Below are positions 48,010-57,500 of a DNA stretch of 64,000 bases, piece after piece (the first letter of the stretch is position 1; every line of letters starts with the position of its first letter). The stretch is from Xanthomonas sp. AM6. Its GTDB lineage: Bacteria > Pseudomonadota > Gammaproteobacteria > Xanthomonadales > Xanthomonadaceae. Made by a program: the position numbers and the translations under genes. Under the pieces are notes generated by a model. It was not told where the DNA came from. It searched no databases and saw nothing but the letters and a program-made list of their open reading frames with translations. Where the stretch lies: contig NZ_CP106869.1 in assembly GCF_025665335.1 (NCBI RefSeq), positions 4,738,501-4,802,500 of the forward strand. The letters are read 5' to 3'.

Positions 48010-48573
48010 ATGGACCCAGCACCGCCGATTCCCATGCCGCACCGCAGCGAAGCCATCGTGGTGATGGGCATTTCCGGCAGCGGCAAGACCAGTGTCGCCC
48101 AGGCCCTGGCCGCGCACTACGGCCATGCGTTCCTGGACGCGGACGATGTCCACAGCGCCGAGGCCAAGGCGCAGATGGCCCGCGGCATCCCACTCACCGA
48201 CGACCAGCGCGTGCCCTGGGTGGCGGCGCTGGCGCTGCGCCTGCGCCAGTCGATCGATGCCGGCCGCAGCGTGGTGCTGGCCTTTTCCGGATTGCGCCGC
48301 GTGCATCGGCAGCAGCTGCGCGACAGCGGCGTGCCGATGCGTTTCGTGTTCCTGCATGCCGCCGCGCACGTCATCGCCGCGCGCCTGGCGCTGCGCAGCG
48401 GCCACTTCATGCCGCCCAGCCTGTTGCAGAGCCAGCTCGACACGCTGGAGCTGCCGCTGGAAGAACCCGACGTGATCTCGGTGGACGTGGATGCACCGTT
48501 CGACGCGGTGGTGGCGGATGCGATCGCGCAGCTGGATGCGGCGAGTGGCGACGTGAGTGGTGGGGCTGCGTAG
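48010..48573 (+). CDS. gntK: Gluconokinase
   Basis: 187-aa thermosensitive-type gluconate kinase. Walker A is MGISGSGKTSVAQALA (about residues 19-34); the conserved FLDADDVHSAEAKAQMARGIPLTDDQRVPWV gluconate-kinase segment follows, with SALRRVHRQ-type CSGLKRxYR motif seen as FSGLRRVHRQQLR. A GTG directly precedes the ATG 48010, and ATG 48034 is another possible start. Makes 6-phosphogluconate. Divergent from the transporter/phosphorylase unit and separated by about 150 bp, it would use the gluconate released by cellobionate phosphorolysis. Confidence 0.93.
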   Translation: MDPAPPIPMPHRSEAIVVMGISGSGKTSVAQALAAHYGHAFLDADDVHSAEAKAQMARGIPLTDDQRVPWVAALALRLRQSIDAGRSVVLAFSGLRRVHRQQLRDSGVPMRFVFLHAAAHVIAARLALRSGHFMPPSLLQSQLDTLELPLEEPDVISVDVDAPFDAVVADAIAQLDAASGDVSGGAA

Positions 48574-48587
48574 CGGTTTTGCCGCAT

Positions 48588-49176
48588 TTGGGGAGGACTT
48601 CAGTCCCCGAGGCTTGCCCATTGCGGCAATGCCGCCGCTTCGCTCGTCGCGGCTGAAGCCGCTCCTACAAAAAGCTTGCGGCCAGCTTATTGGGCGCACT
48701 GTGGGAGGGACTTCGGTCCCGGCGCCCTCCGATTGCGGCTACTCCATCGCTTCGTTTGTCGCGGCTGAAGCCGCTCCTACAGGAGCTTGCGACCAGCTTG
48801 CCCGGGTGCGATGTGGGAGGGACTTCAATCCCGATACCCCCGGTTGCGACTACTCCGCTGCTTCGTTCGTCGCGGCTGAAGCCGCTCCTACAGGAGCTTG
48901 CGACCAGCATGCCCCGGTGCAATGTGGGAGGAACCTCAGTCCCGATGCCCCCAGTTGCGGGGCCAGTCCACCGCTTCGCTCGTCGCGGCTGAAGCCGCTC
49001 CTACAGGAGCCTGCGGCCAGCTTGCCTGGGTGCACTGTGGGAGGGACTTCAGTCCCGATGCCGTCGGTTACGGTTACTCCACCGCTTCGCTCGTCGCGGC
49101 TGAAGCCGCTCCTGCAGGGGCTTGCGGCCAGCTTGCCTGGGTGCACTGTGGGAGGGACTTCAGTCCCGACGCGTTG
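48588..49176. repeat. Tandem REP array, about 5.5 units of 111-113 bp
   Basis: Starts of the gtgggaggg core: about 48589, 48701, 48813, 48924, 49037 and 49148 (periods 111-113). Each unit has a gggacttcagtccc hairpin, a variable 30-base spacer, then an inverted gtcgcggctgaagccgctcc copy and an aggagcttgcggccagcttg spacer. The unit is not constant modulo 3. It fills the gap between gntK and the DNA glycosylase gene; no independent gene is seen. Confidence 0.92.
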
Positions 49177-49238
49177 TGGTTGCGGCCATTCCGCCGGGCG
49201 GCATCGCCGCGCGGGTATGTGGCGCTTCCATCACTCCC

Positions 49239-49865
49239 TCAGCTCGCGCGCACGACCTTGCGCTTCGTCCCCGGCGCCACAGGCCCCGACACGTTCCGGT
49301 CGCCGGGCACGTACCAGCGCCACGGCGCCTCCGTCGCCTTGCTGATGCCGATGCGCGGCGTGGCCACCGGCTCGGCCGGCGGCGCGGTGCCGTCCTCGCC
49401 CAGCCACAGGCGCGAGCTGGTCCGGGTCAGGTCCAGGCCGTTGTCCGCACCCGAGGCGCCGAGCGCCTTGGCCAACCGGCCCGGGCCGCGGGTGAGATCG
49501 GCGATGCGCGCCGCGCCGCGCGCCAGCTGCATCGCCTCGATGCCCGCGACCGGCGCCAACGCACGGATCAGCACCGCATGCCCGGGCGCGCCGCCGCAGA
49601 CCGCGTTGAGCGCCCAGTGCATGCCGTAGATGAAATAGACGTACAGATGGCCGGGCGGGCCGAACATCACCTGCGTGCGCGGGGTCATGCCACGGAACGA
49701 ATGCGCCGCCGGGTCCTCGGCGCCGCAATAGGCCTCCACCTCGACGATGCGCCCGCAGCGGCCGTCGGCGGCGACCAGCAGCTTGTTCAGCAGCTCCGGC
49801 GCCACCAGGCGCGAATCGCGCGCGTAGAACGCGCGCGGCAACGGAGTCGGAGAGGTCGCAAGCAT
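49239..49865 (-). CDS. 3-methyladenine DNA glycosylase (Mpg/AAG family)
   Basis: 208-aa base-excision glycosylase of the mammalian-type (AAG/MPG) family, removing alkylated and deaminated purines. The catalytic Glu is in [20 protein letters not shown], and [26 protein letters not shown] corresponds to the DNA-binding hairpin region. ATG at 49865; a GTG two codons upstream is also possible. Isolated gene beside the REP array. Confidence 0.93.
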
Positions 49866-49987: not shown

Positions 49988-52135
<2,148 letters not shown>

Positions 52136-52338
52136 GTTGAAATCCACGTTAGCTAGCTTCCGACCTTAGCTTGCCATTGCCGGAAGAGGCAATACGGCAG
52201 CTTTGCAGCAGAGAGTTACTTCCGCCGAGATAGCTAGCGCCATGACATCGAGAACCTCTACAGATCAGGCATACGGGCGAGCCTTGAGTCCATATTAGTA
52301 CTAAATTCTTATAATGATGCACATCCACCTGCGCAACT

Positions 52339-52734
52339 TTAGATTAAAGCCCCAATAACGCTAACTATTGGTATAGACAGAAAAGCGACAATCGCGAATA
52401 CGAGGAAGCGCTTCATATCGGCTTTTAGTCCGTCCAAGTTAGCGTCCCCTGTAGAGCCAGCCCTGAACAGCCAATCCCCTTCGCGCATTGTGTTAGTTCC
52501 CCTGACCTTCAATAATGGTACATATGTAATTTCAGCTTCAGCAGCAGGATCTACAGATCTTATTGCCCGCAGTATTCGAAGTCGTCGCAGTGTTCCAAGC
52601 ACGGCCAATCCACAGAGAATCAGTGCGGTATAATAACCCGACAACACCCTCGGACTTATAGAACCAAAAATAAGCAATATTATTAAAGCGATAAGCACTG
52701 CCACCCAAACCATCCAAAGATACCTGACCTTCAT
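52339..52734 (-). CDS. Small two-plus-one-helix membrane protein, possible orphan immunity protein
   Basis: 131-aa protein of unknown family. Hydrophobic segments at about residues 4-30 (WMVWVAVLIALIILLIFGSI), 33-50 (GYYTALILCGLAVLGTL) and 108-130 (FLVFAIVAFLSIPIVSVIGA), with a soluble loop of about 55 residues between (AEAEITYVPLLKVRGTNTM). Start ATG 52734 with GCGAGG 6 bases upstream; the frame also opens at a GTG 6 codons earlier. The DNA is visibly lower in GC than its surroundings. It lies right after the remains of an RHS gene in the same direction, the place of an RHS toxin's immunity gene. Immunity role is inference. Confidence 0.7.
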   Translation of the reverse strand: MKVRYLWMVWVAVLIALIILLIFGSISPRVLSGYYTALILCGLAVLGTLRRLRILRAIRSVDPAAEAEITYVPLLKVRGTNTMREGDWLFRAGSTGDANLDGLKADMKRFLVFAIVAFLSIPIVSVIGALI

Positions 52735-52758
52735 TTTATACCTCGCAATCACTTTGCA

Positions 52759-53227
52759 TCAGGGGCCAAGAGTGTTGGCATAGAAACCAGCGGCAGCGTA
52801 CGATCTCCAGTGGCCCGAGTTATTATTAGCATATCGATATCTATTAAAAACTCGCATCGGCACTGATTGCACTTATTAGATCGCCGCTAAGGAACCGCCC
52901 TGTGTTCTGGTCATGGTAGCGCTGTTGCATATATGTGAGCCCAATCGCCGCATCCATGACGTGTCCCGTATAGCCGGCCGGACGGAGAGCCTGCTGTTGC
53001 CGGGAATGTCGATGTCGGTCCAGTTGAACTCTACCTCACCATTCTTCAGGCTGACCTGTTCGCCGAAAGAATCGACGCTCAGCCGCCCGATGTCCCGACG
53101 ACTGCTTGCTGCACTCGATGTATTTCTGATCGAACCTCAACTCCTGGGCATTGGCTAGCGTCGCGAACGCCATCGCCAGCAGGGTCGCGCCTGCGCGCAG
53201 ACGAAGAAACGTAGCGAACGTGTCCAT
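52759..53227 (-). pseudogene. Collapsed RHS-repeat protein gene
   Basis: The three frames together rebuild the two ends of one RHS protein. Frame of ATG 53227: exported start MDTFATFLRLRAGATLLAMA, then AQELRFDQKYIECSKQ, after which the frame is lost. The next frame then reads DIGRLSVDSFGEQVSLKNGE followed by VEFNWTDIDIPGNS, the usual N-terminal RHS segment. A third frame then gives GYTGHVMDAAIGLTYMQQRY followed by HDQNTGRFLSGD, the C-terminal RHS core signature, to a stop near 52844. The missing hundreds of residues between point to a large internal deletion plus frameshifts. A further 21 codons ending at 52759 (GHWRSYAAAGFYANTLGP) look like a C-terminal protein tail. Lower GC than neighbours. 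Not functional as it stands. Confidence 0.65.
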
Positions 53228-53660
53228 GTGTGTTCTCGAGATCGATCGATAACCAATAGATGGCCATGCCTCGCCCGCGGCATGGAATGCATCGATGTGC
53301 CGCAGGAGCGACTGAGTTCAATGCATCAGCTTGCAGCGCCGACCAGGTCGATCGAACGCAGCAGCCAACAACGACGCTTTACGTCGCTGGCATCCGTTGA
53401 TATGAAACAGCGCCCCCGTTGCAGCAAGCGCGAAAGCACCCGAATGACGATCCATGTTTCCCTTGATCTCGACACCATATGCCGCTGCGCTTCAGTTCGA
53501 AGCGAAGCAGAACACACGCCCTTCGCAGACGGCGCAGCCATCAATACAGCAGCATTGCACCGCCGATTACCCGTACTTAGCTGTGATAGAGCAAACCTGG
53601 GCCTGTCAAGAAAATTTTGGCGCTCGTAAAGCTTCAGTCAGGCTATGCCTGGGAAAGCCC
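53228..53660. promoter_or_regulatory. Lower-GC upstream region of the RHS remnant, with promoter-like elements
   Basis: No gene is supported in this region. On the minus strand TTGACA (53604-53609), a perfect -35, is followed 15 bases on by TATCAC (53583-53588), a weak -10; both lie about 360 bp upstream of the RHS start. The region is less GC-rich than the chromosome average. A promoter for the former RHS gene or for a small RNA is possible; both are weakly supported. Confidence 0.35.
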
Positions 53661-56600
53661 CTACTTCTCCTTCCGCCAATTGATCGACCCACGATTCTCC
53701 ACCGTGCTCGATTCCACTTCCGCGTCGAAACCGCGGCCAAGCAGGTATTTGAGGGTCAGCACCGAGCCGCTGCCGACCAGGGAGACGCCGTAGCTGACGT
53801 AAAGCCGGGGCGAGAGGTATTTGCCGAAGCCGACCACCGAGCCGCCGAGCGCGCGCGACTGGCTGACGCCGGCGTCGTCGAAGCCGAGCTTGGCGCCCAG
53901 TTGCGAGGCGAGGATGCCGCTGCCGGCCGACAGCGCGCTGGCCGCGGCGGTGACCTGGTCGGCTTCGTCGCTGCTGGCGTTGCTCAGGCTGCGGCCCAGC
54001 ACCAGGTAGGACATCGCTTCGGATTGCGACATCGAAGGGTCCGACCACACGTCGGCGCGCGGGGCGGTGGCGCGGCCGGTGACGTCGATGCCGGCGGTGA
54101 CGTCGCCGATCTTGCGCTGCGCGCGCATGTTGATGCGCGGGTCGGAGACGACGTTGTTGCTCCAGGTCAGCTGGCCGCGGGTAATGGTCAGGTCCTGGCC
54201 GTAGGCCTTGTACTGGCCGCTGACGTCCAGGCCGCCGGTGGCGGTCATCTCGCGGCCCTGGCGCGAGCGCACCTGCATGGCGCCGGTCAGGGCGCCCTTC
54301 AGGCCGAAGCCGGCCATCTTGACCTGGTCGCCGAGCACCACACGCAGGTCCATTTCCAGCGGCGAGCTCGGCGCTTCCTCGGGGTCGGCCGGGTCCAGCA
54401 CCACCACGTCCTCGGACACCGAGGTGCCGCGATCCAACCGCTCCAGGTCGATGTCCGCCGACGGCACGGTGACCTGGCCGTTCAACTTCATGGTCTTGTT
54501 GGCGATGCCGAACTGCAGGTCGGGGTTGGCCACCGCGCGCAATTCGGCGGTATTGGAAACCAGCACGTTGCTGCCGCGGATGTTCAACTGCAGCGGCGTG
54601 GTGTCGCCGTACCAAGACAGGCCGCCGTCGACGTTGAGCGTGCCTTCGCCGGATTTCACCGCGGCGACGATGCGCGCCGAGCCGTCCGGCTGCGCGTCGA
54701 AGCGGCCGTTGCCTTCGCTCAGGGTCAGGCCCAGTGCCGGCAGTTCGCCGGTGAAGTTGCTCAGCGTGGCGTTGCCGCCCATCGACGGTTGCGAGCGCGT
54801 GCCGCGCAGGCTGACGTGGCCTTCGACCAGGCCCTTGGGCCGCACCAGGTCGGGCGAGAACAGCTCCATCCAGTACAGCCGCGACATGTTCATGTAGATC
54901 TCGCCGTTGAGCGGCGCGTACGCATCCCAGCCGGTATCCACGGTGGCGTCGATGAAGCCGTCGCCCTTGAAGCCGACGCCGAGCTTGGAGTGGATGTGCT
55001 GGGCGCTGAAGTCGGTGACGAAACTGAACTGGTCGTAGCGCACCAGCTCGCCGCGCGCGTTGTCGCCCAGGCGCAGGCCGCCTTCCGGAGAAGCCAGGCG
55101 CAGCGATCCTTGCCAGGCGTTGCCGGCCGGCTTGAAGCTGCCGTCGAGGGTCAGTTCGCCGCGCAGGTACATCTTGCGGCCGCTGTTGGGCGGCAGCCAC
55201 GGCTGCACCAGCGACAGCGGCAAGGCGTCGCCGCGCACGGTCAGGCCCTGCCTGGGCCAGTTCGCGGCCACGCACAGCGCACCGCCGCCGCTGGCGCCGA
55301 GGCAGGTGTCGGAGAGGGTGAAGGCGCTGCCGGCGATGGCGAACGTGGCCGGCTGCCGCAGTTGCCACGGCTCGCCCTTGGCCGGCGCCACCCGCAGCGC
55401 GTTCAATCCGCCCTGCCAGCGCGCGCCGTCGCGGCGCACTTGGCCGGCGAGGGCGAGCGCGCCCATGTCGTTTTGGGTATCGGCGTCGAGCTGCAGGTTC
55501 TCCACCGCGCCGCGCGCGTCCACGCGCAGCGTCTGCAGCGCCACGCCGGCACTGATCGCGCTGCCGCGCAGCGCCAGTTCGCCGCCGTTGCCGCGCCACG
55601 GCAGGCGCCCGCGCAGGCTGAGGCTGTCGGCGCCGTAGCTGTCCCACTTCAGGCCGTTGCCGGTGAGATCGGCGGTAAGGTCGGGCGCGTCGCGGCGCCC
55701 CTTGACCTGTACGCTGCCGCGCAGGCTGCCGGTGGCGCCGGGCAGCAGGTCGGCCAGCTGCAGCGGTTGCAGTTGCGCCTCGATGTCGAGCTGGTCGCCG
55801 ACCTTGCCCTGTGCCTGCACGCGGCTGTCGCCCAGCGCCAGTTGCAGCTTGCCTTCGCCCTGCTCGCCCTGCAGCGCGAACTTGCCGTTGGCGTCGAGCG
55901 GGCGGCTGCGCAGCTTGCCGTTCAAGCGCGGCACGTCGAGGCTGGCCTGGTAGCCGGCGGCGCTGCCGTCCGGGCGCGCCGGCAGCTGCTTGCCCTTGGA
56001 CGCGAACTGGCCGGACAGGTTGCCGTCCCAGCCCGGCGCGAAATAGCCGGGGTCGAAGCCGGCGAGCTTGCCGCTCAGGTCCCAGCTCAGTTCTGGCGTC
56101 CACGCCACCGCACCGCCGAGATCGAGCGTGCCGCTGGGCATGGCCGCCTGCAGCTGCACGATCTGCGCCTGCCGGTCGTCGCCGCGCACGTCCAGCTGCA
56201 GGCCGGCGCTGTCCTTGCCGCGCGCGACGGTGGCTTCGCCGTAGGTGGCCCACTGTTTCAGCGTGCCGGCCAAGCCGAGGTTGGCCTCGACCAGCTGGAT
56301 CGGCACCGCCGGCGCGTCCGGCGTGGAGGGATCCGGCGCGGCAGTGAACTTCAGCCCGCTGGCGTTGACCGAGAAGCGGAAGGTCGCGTTGTCCCGGTCG
56401 CGGAAATCGGCCGTGCCGCGCAGCCGTGCCTGGCCGTCGAAGGCGCGCAGCTGCAGCGGCGCGACGGTCAGCACCTGGTTCTCCAGGCGCACGTTGGACG
56501 GGTCCAGCGTCAACTTCTGCTCGCCATACGCGAGTTGGCCTTGCAGCTTGGCATCGCCGCCCTTGCCGGACGCGCCCAGGTCGAACGCGATCGGTTCGCC

Positions 56601-57500
56601 GGCGGCGGCCGTGGCATCGCTGGGAGGCACGAACAGCGACGGATCCAGCGCCTTGCTGCTGGCGGCGAACTGCCAGGTCGGATCGGTGCGGCCGGTGAAC
56701 ACCAGCGTGACGCGCAGCGGCGCCGGCGCGGCGCCGGCGATCGCCACTTCCATCTTGTCCAGGTTGCCGCGCGCCACCAGGCCCAGCCGCGCCGGCGTGC
56801 GCCCGCGCGCGGCCGGCAGCACGGCGCTGGCGGTGAGATCGGCCTTGTAGTCCTGCGCCGGCACGTAGTCGCCATCGACGCGGAAATCGCCGCGGTCGCT
56901 GGTCACCACCAGCTGCGTGGCGCGGAATTCGCCGTTGGCCACCTCGATGCCGCCGCGCAGCGTGCGGATGTCGATCATCGGTTGCTGCGACTGGGTGATG
57001 CGGAATCCGTCGATGGCGATGCGGTCGGCCTGCAGCGCCAGCGGCATTTCGATCTGCGGCAGCGACTCCGGCCAGCTCGGCAGTTCGAACGGTTCGTCGC
57101 TCTTGGCCAGGTTGAGCGTGGCGTTTTTCAATTGCAGCGCATCGAGCTGCAGCTTGCGCCCGAGCAGCGGGCGGATGTCCGGATCCAGGTAGGCGCGCTC
57201 GGCGGTGAAGTGGATCTGGTCGTAGCGGAAATCGAGGTTGTACAGGGTCAGCGGGCCGGCCAATGGCCCTTCGGCGCGCTCCCAGGTCAGCGAGGAGCCG
57301 GCCGGCAGCCGCGCCACGATCTGCGTCAGCAGCACGTCGCGCCCGGCCACCGTCTGCAGCAGCCAGTACACGGCGATCAGGGCCAGCAGGCCGAGTCCGG
57401 CGACGGTCAGCGCCGAGCCCCACCAGAAGCGCTTGCGGCGGTAGAAGCGCGGACGCCGCGGCGGCGGCGGCGCGGGCGTGGCGGGACCGGTCGCGCTCAC
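53661..57500 (-). CDS. tamB: Translocation and assembly module protein TamB
   Basis: 1279-aa inner-membrane-anchored AsmA-like protein spanning the periplasm as a long beta-taco and partner of TamA. One N-terminal TM segment (about 25-50, FWWGSALTVAGLGLLALIAVYWLL) after a Pro/Arg-rich cytoplasmic start, then repetitive beta-rich sequence, then the conserved C-terminal DUF490 domain (GRSLSNASSDEADQVTAAAS and LYVSYGVSLVGSGSVLTLKY, ending IEWR-like GSINWRKEK). The start is GTG at 57500, which overlaps the tamA stop (GTGA), as expected for translational coupling. Roles in outer-membrane protein insertion and lipid transport are known for the family. Confidence 0.94.
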   Translation of the reverse strand: MSATGPATPAPPPPRRPRFYRRKRFWWGSALTVAGLGLLALIAVYWLLQTVAGRDVLLTQIVARLPAGSSLTWERAEGPLAGPLTLYNLDFRYDQIHFTAERAYLDPDIRPLLGRKLQLDALQLKNATLNLAKSDEPFELPSWPESLPQIEMPLALQADRIAIDGFRITQSQQPMIDIRTLRGGIEVANGEFRATQLVVTSDRGDFRVDGDYVPAQDYKADLTASAVLPAARGRTPARLGLVARGNLDKMEVAIAGAAPAPLRVTLVFTGRTDPTWQFAASSKALDPSLFVPPSDATAAAGEPIAFDLGASGKGGDAKLQGQLAYGEQKLTLDPSNVRLENQVLTVAPLQLRAFDGQARLRGTADFRDRDNATFRFSVNASGLKFTAAPDPSTPDAPAVPIQLVEANLGLAGTLKQWATYGEATVARGKDSAGLQLDVRGDDRQAQIVQLQAAMPSGTLDLGGAVAWTPELSWDLSGKLAGFDPGYFAPGWDGNLSGQFASKGKQLPARPDGSAAGYQASLDVPRLNGKLRSRPLDANGKFALQGEQGEGKLQLALGDSRVQAQGKVGDQLDIEAQLQPLQLADLLPGATGSLRGSVQVKGRRDAPDLTADLTGNGLKWDSYGADSLSLRGRLPWRGNGGELALRGSAISAGVALQTLRVDARGAVENLQLDADTQNDMGALALAGQVRRDGARWQGGLNALRVAPAKGEPWQLRQPATFAIAGSAFTLSDTCLGASGGGALCVAANWPRQGLTVRGDALPLSLVQPWLPPNSGRKMYLRGELTLDGSFKPAGNAWQGSLRLASPEGGLRLGDNARGELVRYDQFSFVTDFSAQHIHSKLGVGFKGDGFIDATVDTGWDAYAPLNGEIYMNMSRLYWMELFSPDLVRPKGLVEGHVSLRGTRSQPSMGGNATLSNFTGELPALGLTLSEGNGRFDAQPDGSARIVAAVKSGEGTLNVDGGLSWYGDTTPLQLNIRGSNVLVSNTAELRAVANPDLQFGIANKTMKLNGQVTVPSADIDLERLDRGTSVSEDVVVLDPADPEEAPSSPLEMDLRVVLGDQVKMAGFGLKGALTGAMQVRSRQGREMTATGGLDVSGQYKAYGQDLTITRGQLTWSNNVVSDPRINMRAQRKIGDVTAGIDVTGRATAPRADVWSDPSMSQSEAMSYLVLGRSLSNASSDEADQVTAAASALSAGSGILASQLGAKLGFDDAGVSQSRALGGSVVGFGKYLSPRLYVSYGVSLVGSGSVLTLKYLLGRGFDAEVESSTVENRGSINWRKEK

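Follow-up and report, generated by a model that had tools for sequence, protein, structure and literature searches.

Polymorphic toxin modules of the RHS and CDI kinds combine a conserved core with a variable toxic end, and the cognate immunity gene lies directly behind. The loci described here depart from this general scheme in that the tip is carried by a cassette gene separate from the large RHS gene, and each of the two has a signal-peptide-like leader. Among described systems, the Bcn-A locus of Xanthomonas perforans (Marutani-Hert et al. 2020; PMC7259588) is the closest; in the sections of that article drawn on here, it adjoins tamB and comprises ORFA (1398 aa, RHS family), ORF2 (124 aa), ORF3 (100 aa), ORF4 (290 aa, with a signal peptide and some identity to RhsA) and ORF5 (145 aa). 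According to the same sections, killing was abolished without ORFA, ORF2 or ORF4 and was weaker without ORF3, and a sensitive strain was protected by ORF5 alone, which is predicted to be an inner-membrane protein and lacks homology to known proteins. The discussion of that article treats ORF2 to ORF4 as secondary, while its abstract has Bcn-A delivering accessory proteins (PMC7259588). The region is anomalous and possibly horizontally acquired, according to the relevant passage of an earlier genome paper (PMC3071791).

A second precedent is SMDB11_2280 of Serratia marcescens Db10 (Hagan et al. 2023; PMC10539506), an orphan RHS immunity gene which, in the portions of that article used here, protects against the RHS toxin of another strain. 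The gene studied here would resemble it as a candidate immunity gene kept at an RHS locus from which the toxic tip is gone, its own protective effect being putative. The two differ in that the Serratia gene belongs to a type VI-delivered RHS system and still has a resident toxin adjacent to it, as far as those portions describe it (PMC10539506), whereas the locus here is destroyed and would have belonged to a Bcn-A-type secreted system. A literature search covering titles and abstract openings returned no statement of the reading proposed below, and the phrase "split Rhs" did not occur in the papers searched.

The window analyzed here, a stretch of 64,000 nucleotides from Xanthomonas sp. AM6, probably preserves what is left of a ruined RHS bacteriocin locus of the Bcn-A type, flanked by tamB and a peptidase S46 gene, the surviving 131-aa gene being an orphan immunity gene; we assign this reading a probability of roughly 75%. 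All the features involved are on the minus strand. The site is bounded by tamB (53661..57500; Pfam PF04357, 216 bits) on one side and by the S46 gene (49988..52147; Pfam PF10459, 709 bits) on the other. Measured in 500-base windows, the GC content was 45-55% over 52250-53249, against 64-76% before 52250 and after 53500, in agreement with the lower GC reported for this region in the initial annotation. The RHS pieces recognized there were also confirmed to follow one another in the right order (53227-52759), by their ORFs, by a match to TIGR03696 and by DNA matches to a second locus of the same genome (L055) and to another genus genome (G005).

The first remnant behind tamB is the start of a large RHS gene of the Bcn-A ORFA type (53036..53227), with an exported-type N-terminus, called by eye and not by a signal-peptide program, after which the frame is lost; this piece showed 60-64% identity to sequences in three other genus genomes (G018, G007 and G010). 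The gene continues in another frame at 52978..53136, within an open stretch at 53136-52879, where the NWTDIDIPGNS segment is found; a 34-residue part of this piece was 91% identical in the same three genomes. With 83 residues matched in two pieces, the large gene at this site is a remnant and not a working gene, and small genes of the ORF2 or ORF3 type gave no match here at E 1e-3.

Beyond a junction at 52977, the remnant belongs to the RHS core of a cassette gene of the Bcn-A ORF4 type (52820..52976), present in two frames and identified by TIGR03696 and by a cassette in G005. Its GLTYMQQRY...GRFLSGD piece lies within an open stretch at 53035-52847 and scored 36.3 bits against TIGR03696 (Rhs_assc_core; cut-off 32.5) with an approximate query sequence. 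A six-frame search of the whole genome recovered the same place at 36.4 bits as one of ten matches over the cut-off, for a model that also found matches in two of 14 control genomes. A fourth RHS piece, overlooked in the initial annotation, was detected at 52872-52762, where FNRYRYANNN extends the core and a short tail leads up to a stop codon. In all, 38 core residues of the cassette gene were matched in one frame, and its tip is absent. The tail (52759..52819), which shares its frame with the last core piece, possibly represents the last codons of the lost tip. It showed no convincing match to any of 16 cassette tips, and when a 126-bp query holding it was searched against the 19 other genus genomes, only the core part was matched (G005 and G008), the tail part being unmatched.

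Directly downstream on the same strand is an intact gene for a 131-aa protein (52339..52734), in the position of an immunity gene (ORF5) and here a candidate orphan immunity gene. It starts with an ATG at 52734 preceded by GAGG and stops at 52339; an alternative GTG at 52752 would give 137 aa. The stop of the last remnant piece is 24 nt from the ATG and 6 nt from the GTG. As had been described, the product is membrane-like, with three hydrophobic 19-residue segments (Kyte-Doolittle average, a measure of hydropathy only), comparable to the predicted membrane protein ORF5, and it matched no family in Pfam or NCBIfam. Compared with Bcn-A, as covered by the sections cited above, the window retains only parts of the locus, without the tip, and the 131-aa protein is likened to ORF5 by its position and description.

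The same genome also carries a fuller Bcn-A-like locus (L055, on C1 at about 3.48 Mb), in which an RHS gene of 1861 aa is accompanied by a 300-aa cassette that has its own leader and, after it, by a gene of 134 aa with a likeness to DUF4279 that falls below the cut-off. Window positions 53611-52977, beginning some 50 bp past the tamB stop where the match to L055 starts, were 88.6% identical to L055 over 640 aligned positions. Past 52977, the match resumes 5505 bp further along L055, inside the core of its second gene (67 bp, 83.6%), and a short CCGGC is shared at the junction. The core part matched a cassette behind tamB in G005 at 87% over 161 aligned positions; this match is longer than that to L055 and ends about ten residues short of the end of the core motif. 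The jump of the match on L055, together with the G005 core match, indicates that the start of one gene was joined to the core of another, and that a separate loss took the tip and the final part of the core. As reconstructed from these alignments, the collapse brought the beginning of the large gene up against the interior of a distinct cassette gene, with no small gene left between them. The locus had been interpreted as one collapsed RHS toxin gene; its collapse and the absence of the tip were both upheld, but a single RHS gene was ruled out, the loci behind tamB in other genomes being split into several genes, with a large gene and a separate cassette gene.

From these data, a history of two losses can be proposed. 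The secreted products of the ancestral locus would have been a large RHS protein, small proteins and at least one separately secreted cassette protein, made of a core and a toxic tip, with an immunity gene behind each cassette. The presence of the ORF2- and ORF3-type genes in the ancestor of the window locus is not certain, since no match to either was found in L055. A first large loss would have taken everything between an early point in the large gene and the interior of the cassette core; a second would have taken the tip, the frame also being broken, and the gene behind the tip would have stayed intact.

The ten RHS-core matches in this genome, the one in the window included, raise the alternative that the 131-aa gene is paired with a toxin encoded elsewhere in its own genome, and hence is no orphan. 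Not all of the other cores have an obvious small gene after them: in L054 the next ORF is a large one, and directly after the second core of L057 no small ORF appears. Against the pairing, L055, the closest relative of the remnant, has its own 134-aa following gene, and the cores of L056 and L058 and the first core of L057 are each followed by a same-strand ORF of their own. We consider this pairing very improbable, and return to the orphan immunity gene in comparing the same site in related genomes.

The tamB gene was present in all 20 genus genomes, and the stretches behind it were compared for the window and the 19 others. A large RHS gene, small genes and cassette core matches were found in 12 of them, remnants only in two (the window and G016), and the remaining six showed no Bcn-A-type parts in the first 12 kb behind tamB. 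The S46 gene is near in two of these six (G002 and G015); it is missing within 15 kb in G004, G019, G001 and G013, so that in these four the site is not the same on the S46 side. Among the 12, nine have the large RHS gene as one uninterrupted ORF (1386 to 1423 codons), and G005, G003 and G011 have it in two pieces. It is followed by two to four small genes whose starts look like leaders, and then by cassette genes of roughly 300 codons, each with its own leader, an RHS core, a tip of 162-204 residues and a small gene behind it (the leaders of small genes and cassettes were judged by eye). These clusters resemble Bcn-A, as presented in the cited sections, in the tamB neighbor, the large RHS gene, the small genes, the ORF4-like cassette and the last small gene, a likeness based on layout and on one published segment: a membrane segment of ORF4 matched the tip of the L055 cassette (61% over 18 aa, E 2e-4), while the other published ORF4 segment gave no convincing match.

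The tamB site was thus seen in full, stacked, collapsed and empty versions among related genomes. In G005 (L036 and L104), the interval from tamB to the S46 gene is about 26 kb and contains four cassettes, unrelated genes and what we take to be transposase-like genes, one of which splits the large RHS gene. In G016 (L044), a second collapsed locus was observed; its interval is 1744 bp, and in it the end of a core and a broken tip are followed by an open ORF of 149 aa. This following ORF was present in one of the 20 genus genomes.

Cassettes and the genes behind them were compared all against all in a set of 16, of which 14 came from behind tamB, one from L055 and one from a second site in G008 (two further cassettes of G005 are outside this count). 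The cores were similar in all 120 pairs, with a mean identity of 71%, and the tips in only three of the 120. The following genes were similar in a single pair (G008-G010, 69%), which is also the pair whose tips were 82% identical; the other two pairs of tips shared partial matches (66 and 112 residues), and their following genes did not match. A same-strand ORF started between -53 and +20 nt from the cassette stop in 16/16 cases, under a loose rule that takes the longest ORF of at least 55 aa near that stop, and these ORFs do not all look like membrane proteins. Conserved cores combined with variable tips and variable following genes form the pattern of putative toxin tips with cognate immunity genes, a single co-varying pair being a thin basis for the pairing itself. 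Since the tip of the ORF4-type protein varies between loci together with the following gene, this tip, and not the large ORFA protein, is likely to be the toxin. The comparison therewith suggests a change to the Bcn-A model, with the ORF4 tip as the variable toxin.

The 131-aa protein was unrelated to the 16 following genes (best E 0.98), a result that any unrelated gene would also give. Unrelated neighbors of this RHS gene in intact relatives had been listed as an argument against the immunity reading; although the neighbors do differ in sequence, they do not refute it, because polymorphic toxin-immunity pairs predict exactly that. The position directly behind the cassette remnant, on the same strand, is that expected of an RHS or Bcn-A immunity gene, and on this point the proposal of an immunity gene stood. 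Its other expected companion, an RHS gene beside a homologue, was not found: no cassette with a homologue of the 131-aa protein behind it was detected in the searches of genomes, family, species collection and viral contigs. The RHS remnants and the ORF are nonetheless more than a chance resemblance, given the 88.6% match to L055, the 87% match to the G005 cassette and the 48% identity to a protein homologue.

This homologue, from Xanthomonas sp. NCPPB 1128, is the sole relative found and aligns over nearly the full length. The protein occurred in two of 395 family genomes, its own included, and two degenerate patterns retrieved one record from a collection of 84,980 species, which may leave out its own genome. 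A two-sequence profile run against 397 genomes of the order recovered the window gene itself, besides 18 hits scoring 14 to 18 bits that we attribute to chance; the 127 pattern matches in viral contigs included no relative of the protein, and plasmids yielded none by DNA or protein. The protein is therefore not widespread, and its wide occurrence apart from RHS genes, named at the outset as evidence against an immunity role, was not observed, although one relative does lack RHS motifs in its surroundings (see below). The DNA flanking the two genes is not counted as shared (best match E 0.06).

Between the two genes, codon positions 1, 2 and 3 agreed in 73, 95 and 42 of 129 codons, respectively, with pN of 0.335 and a saturated pS of 0.80. 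This pattern shows long selection on the 131-aa protein over the divergence of the two copies, not necessarily since the collapse. These data bear on the possibility that the ORF is a functionless leftover, decaying like the rest of the locus. Its adjoining pieces are decayed, and a promoter scan detected no promoter-like site on its strand (one site on the other strand, against 1.4 expected); however, the ORF is full length relative to its homologue, with differences mainly at third codon positions, a signal of long divergence that need not postdate the collapse. A leftover seems to us improbable, even if the retention of one 396-bp ORF beside a decayed gene could reflect recency or chance instead of selection. 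As an immunity gene, still expressed as we presume, it would most likely encode an inner-membrane protein that continues to shield the cell from relatives whose toxins are of the same type as the lost tip; resistance to toxin-bearing siblings, the reason first proposed, may be why it was kept. By analogy with the Bcn-A assays and the Serratia orphan, in the published portions used here (PMC7259588, PMC10539506), it may block a tip that acts at or crosses the inner membrane.

The second site, at which the homologue is found, was then compared across the genus. In NCPPB 1128, the gene is flanked by what we take to be a gene for an S9-type peptidase on one side and a cydA-like gene on the other. 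A search with exact motifs found no RHS motif within 19 kb around it, and the 3.7 kb at the homologue gave no match to Bcn-A parts; it is consequently its site that links this gene to RHS loci. Bcn-A-type parts were found at this site in three (G008, G011 and G012) of the 19 genus genomes with the cydA-like gene. In G008, they comprise a cassette, a following gene and an ORF3-type piece. The Bcn-A-type inserts and the NCPPB 1128 insert have flanks whose end points differ by no more than a few bases. However, G006, G007, G009 and G010 have the same flanks around 480-810 bp of other material without Bcn-A matches, which weakens the link drawn from the site. The interval is 220-470 bp in most of the remaining genomes, that of the window included.

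These observations bring in a further explanation, in which the 131-aa gene has no relation to an RHS toxin and is instead an accessory or cargo gene for a membrane protein, lodged at an insertion-prone site. The surroundings of the NCPPB 1128 homologue and the other material in the four genomes just named fit such a gene, as do the differing GC contents of the two copies (45.5% against 60.8%) and the presumed transposase-like and other genes that G005 also acquired behind tamB. Against it, the copy in the window lies directly behind the cassette remnant, on the same strand and in the ORF5 position, and the other copy occupies a site where three genomes carry Bcn-A-type parts. Cargo is, in our estimate, unlikely, though the strongest competitor of the orphan immunity gene.

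Extended to the genus, the orphan immunity gene becomes part of a wider proposal, which we put forward tentatively, at slightly less than even odds: Bcn-A-type loci would be genus-wide secreted, split RHS toxins whose cap is exported separately, with cassettes swapped or stacked at no fewer than two sites, and lineages would repeatedly drop the weapon and keep the last immunity gene as a shield. The window, G016 and NCPPB 1128 are the candidate cases of a weapon lost with the last gene kept, three being a number that chance could also produce, in a tally that leaves out collapsed loci that also lost the last gene, and another gene having remained in G011 and G012. Orphan immunity genes are already known as a kind, and Bcn-A is known but little studied, which makes the genus-wide pattern the more interesting part. 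If the reading is correct, the window gene would be an orphan RHS immunity gene derived from a secreted RHS bacteriocin of plant-associated bacteria, the earlier ones, in the portions of the source used here, being from the type VI system (PMC10539506).

Some minor observations were made at the second site and in the window. G011 (L099) and G012 (L101) each have a lone ORF3-type small gene at the second site, the rest of the locus being absent. In G008 (L098), the second-site cassette is preceded by a piece similar to the TamB tail, which suggests that this cluster may have been copied from behind tamB. At 48560-49250 of the window, several ORFs repeat the same short phrases (e.g. CRSGFSRDERSGG), and the region looks like a cluster of short interspersed repeats.
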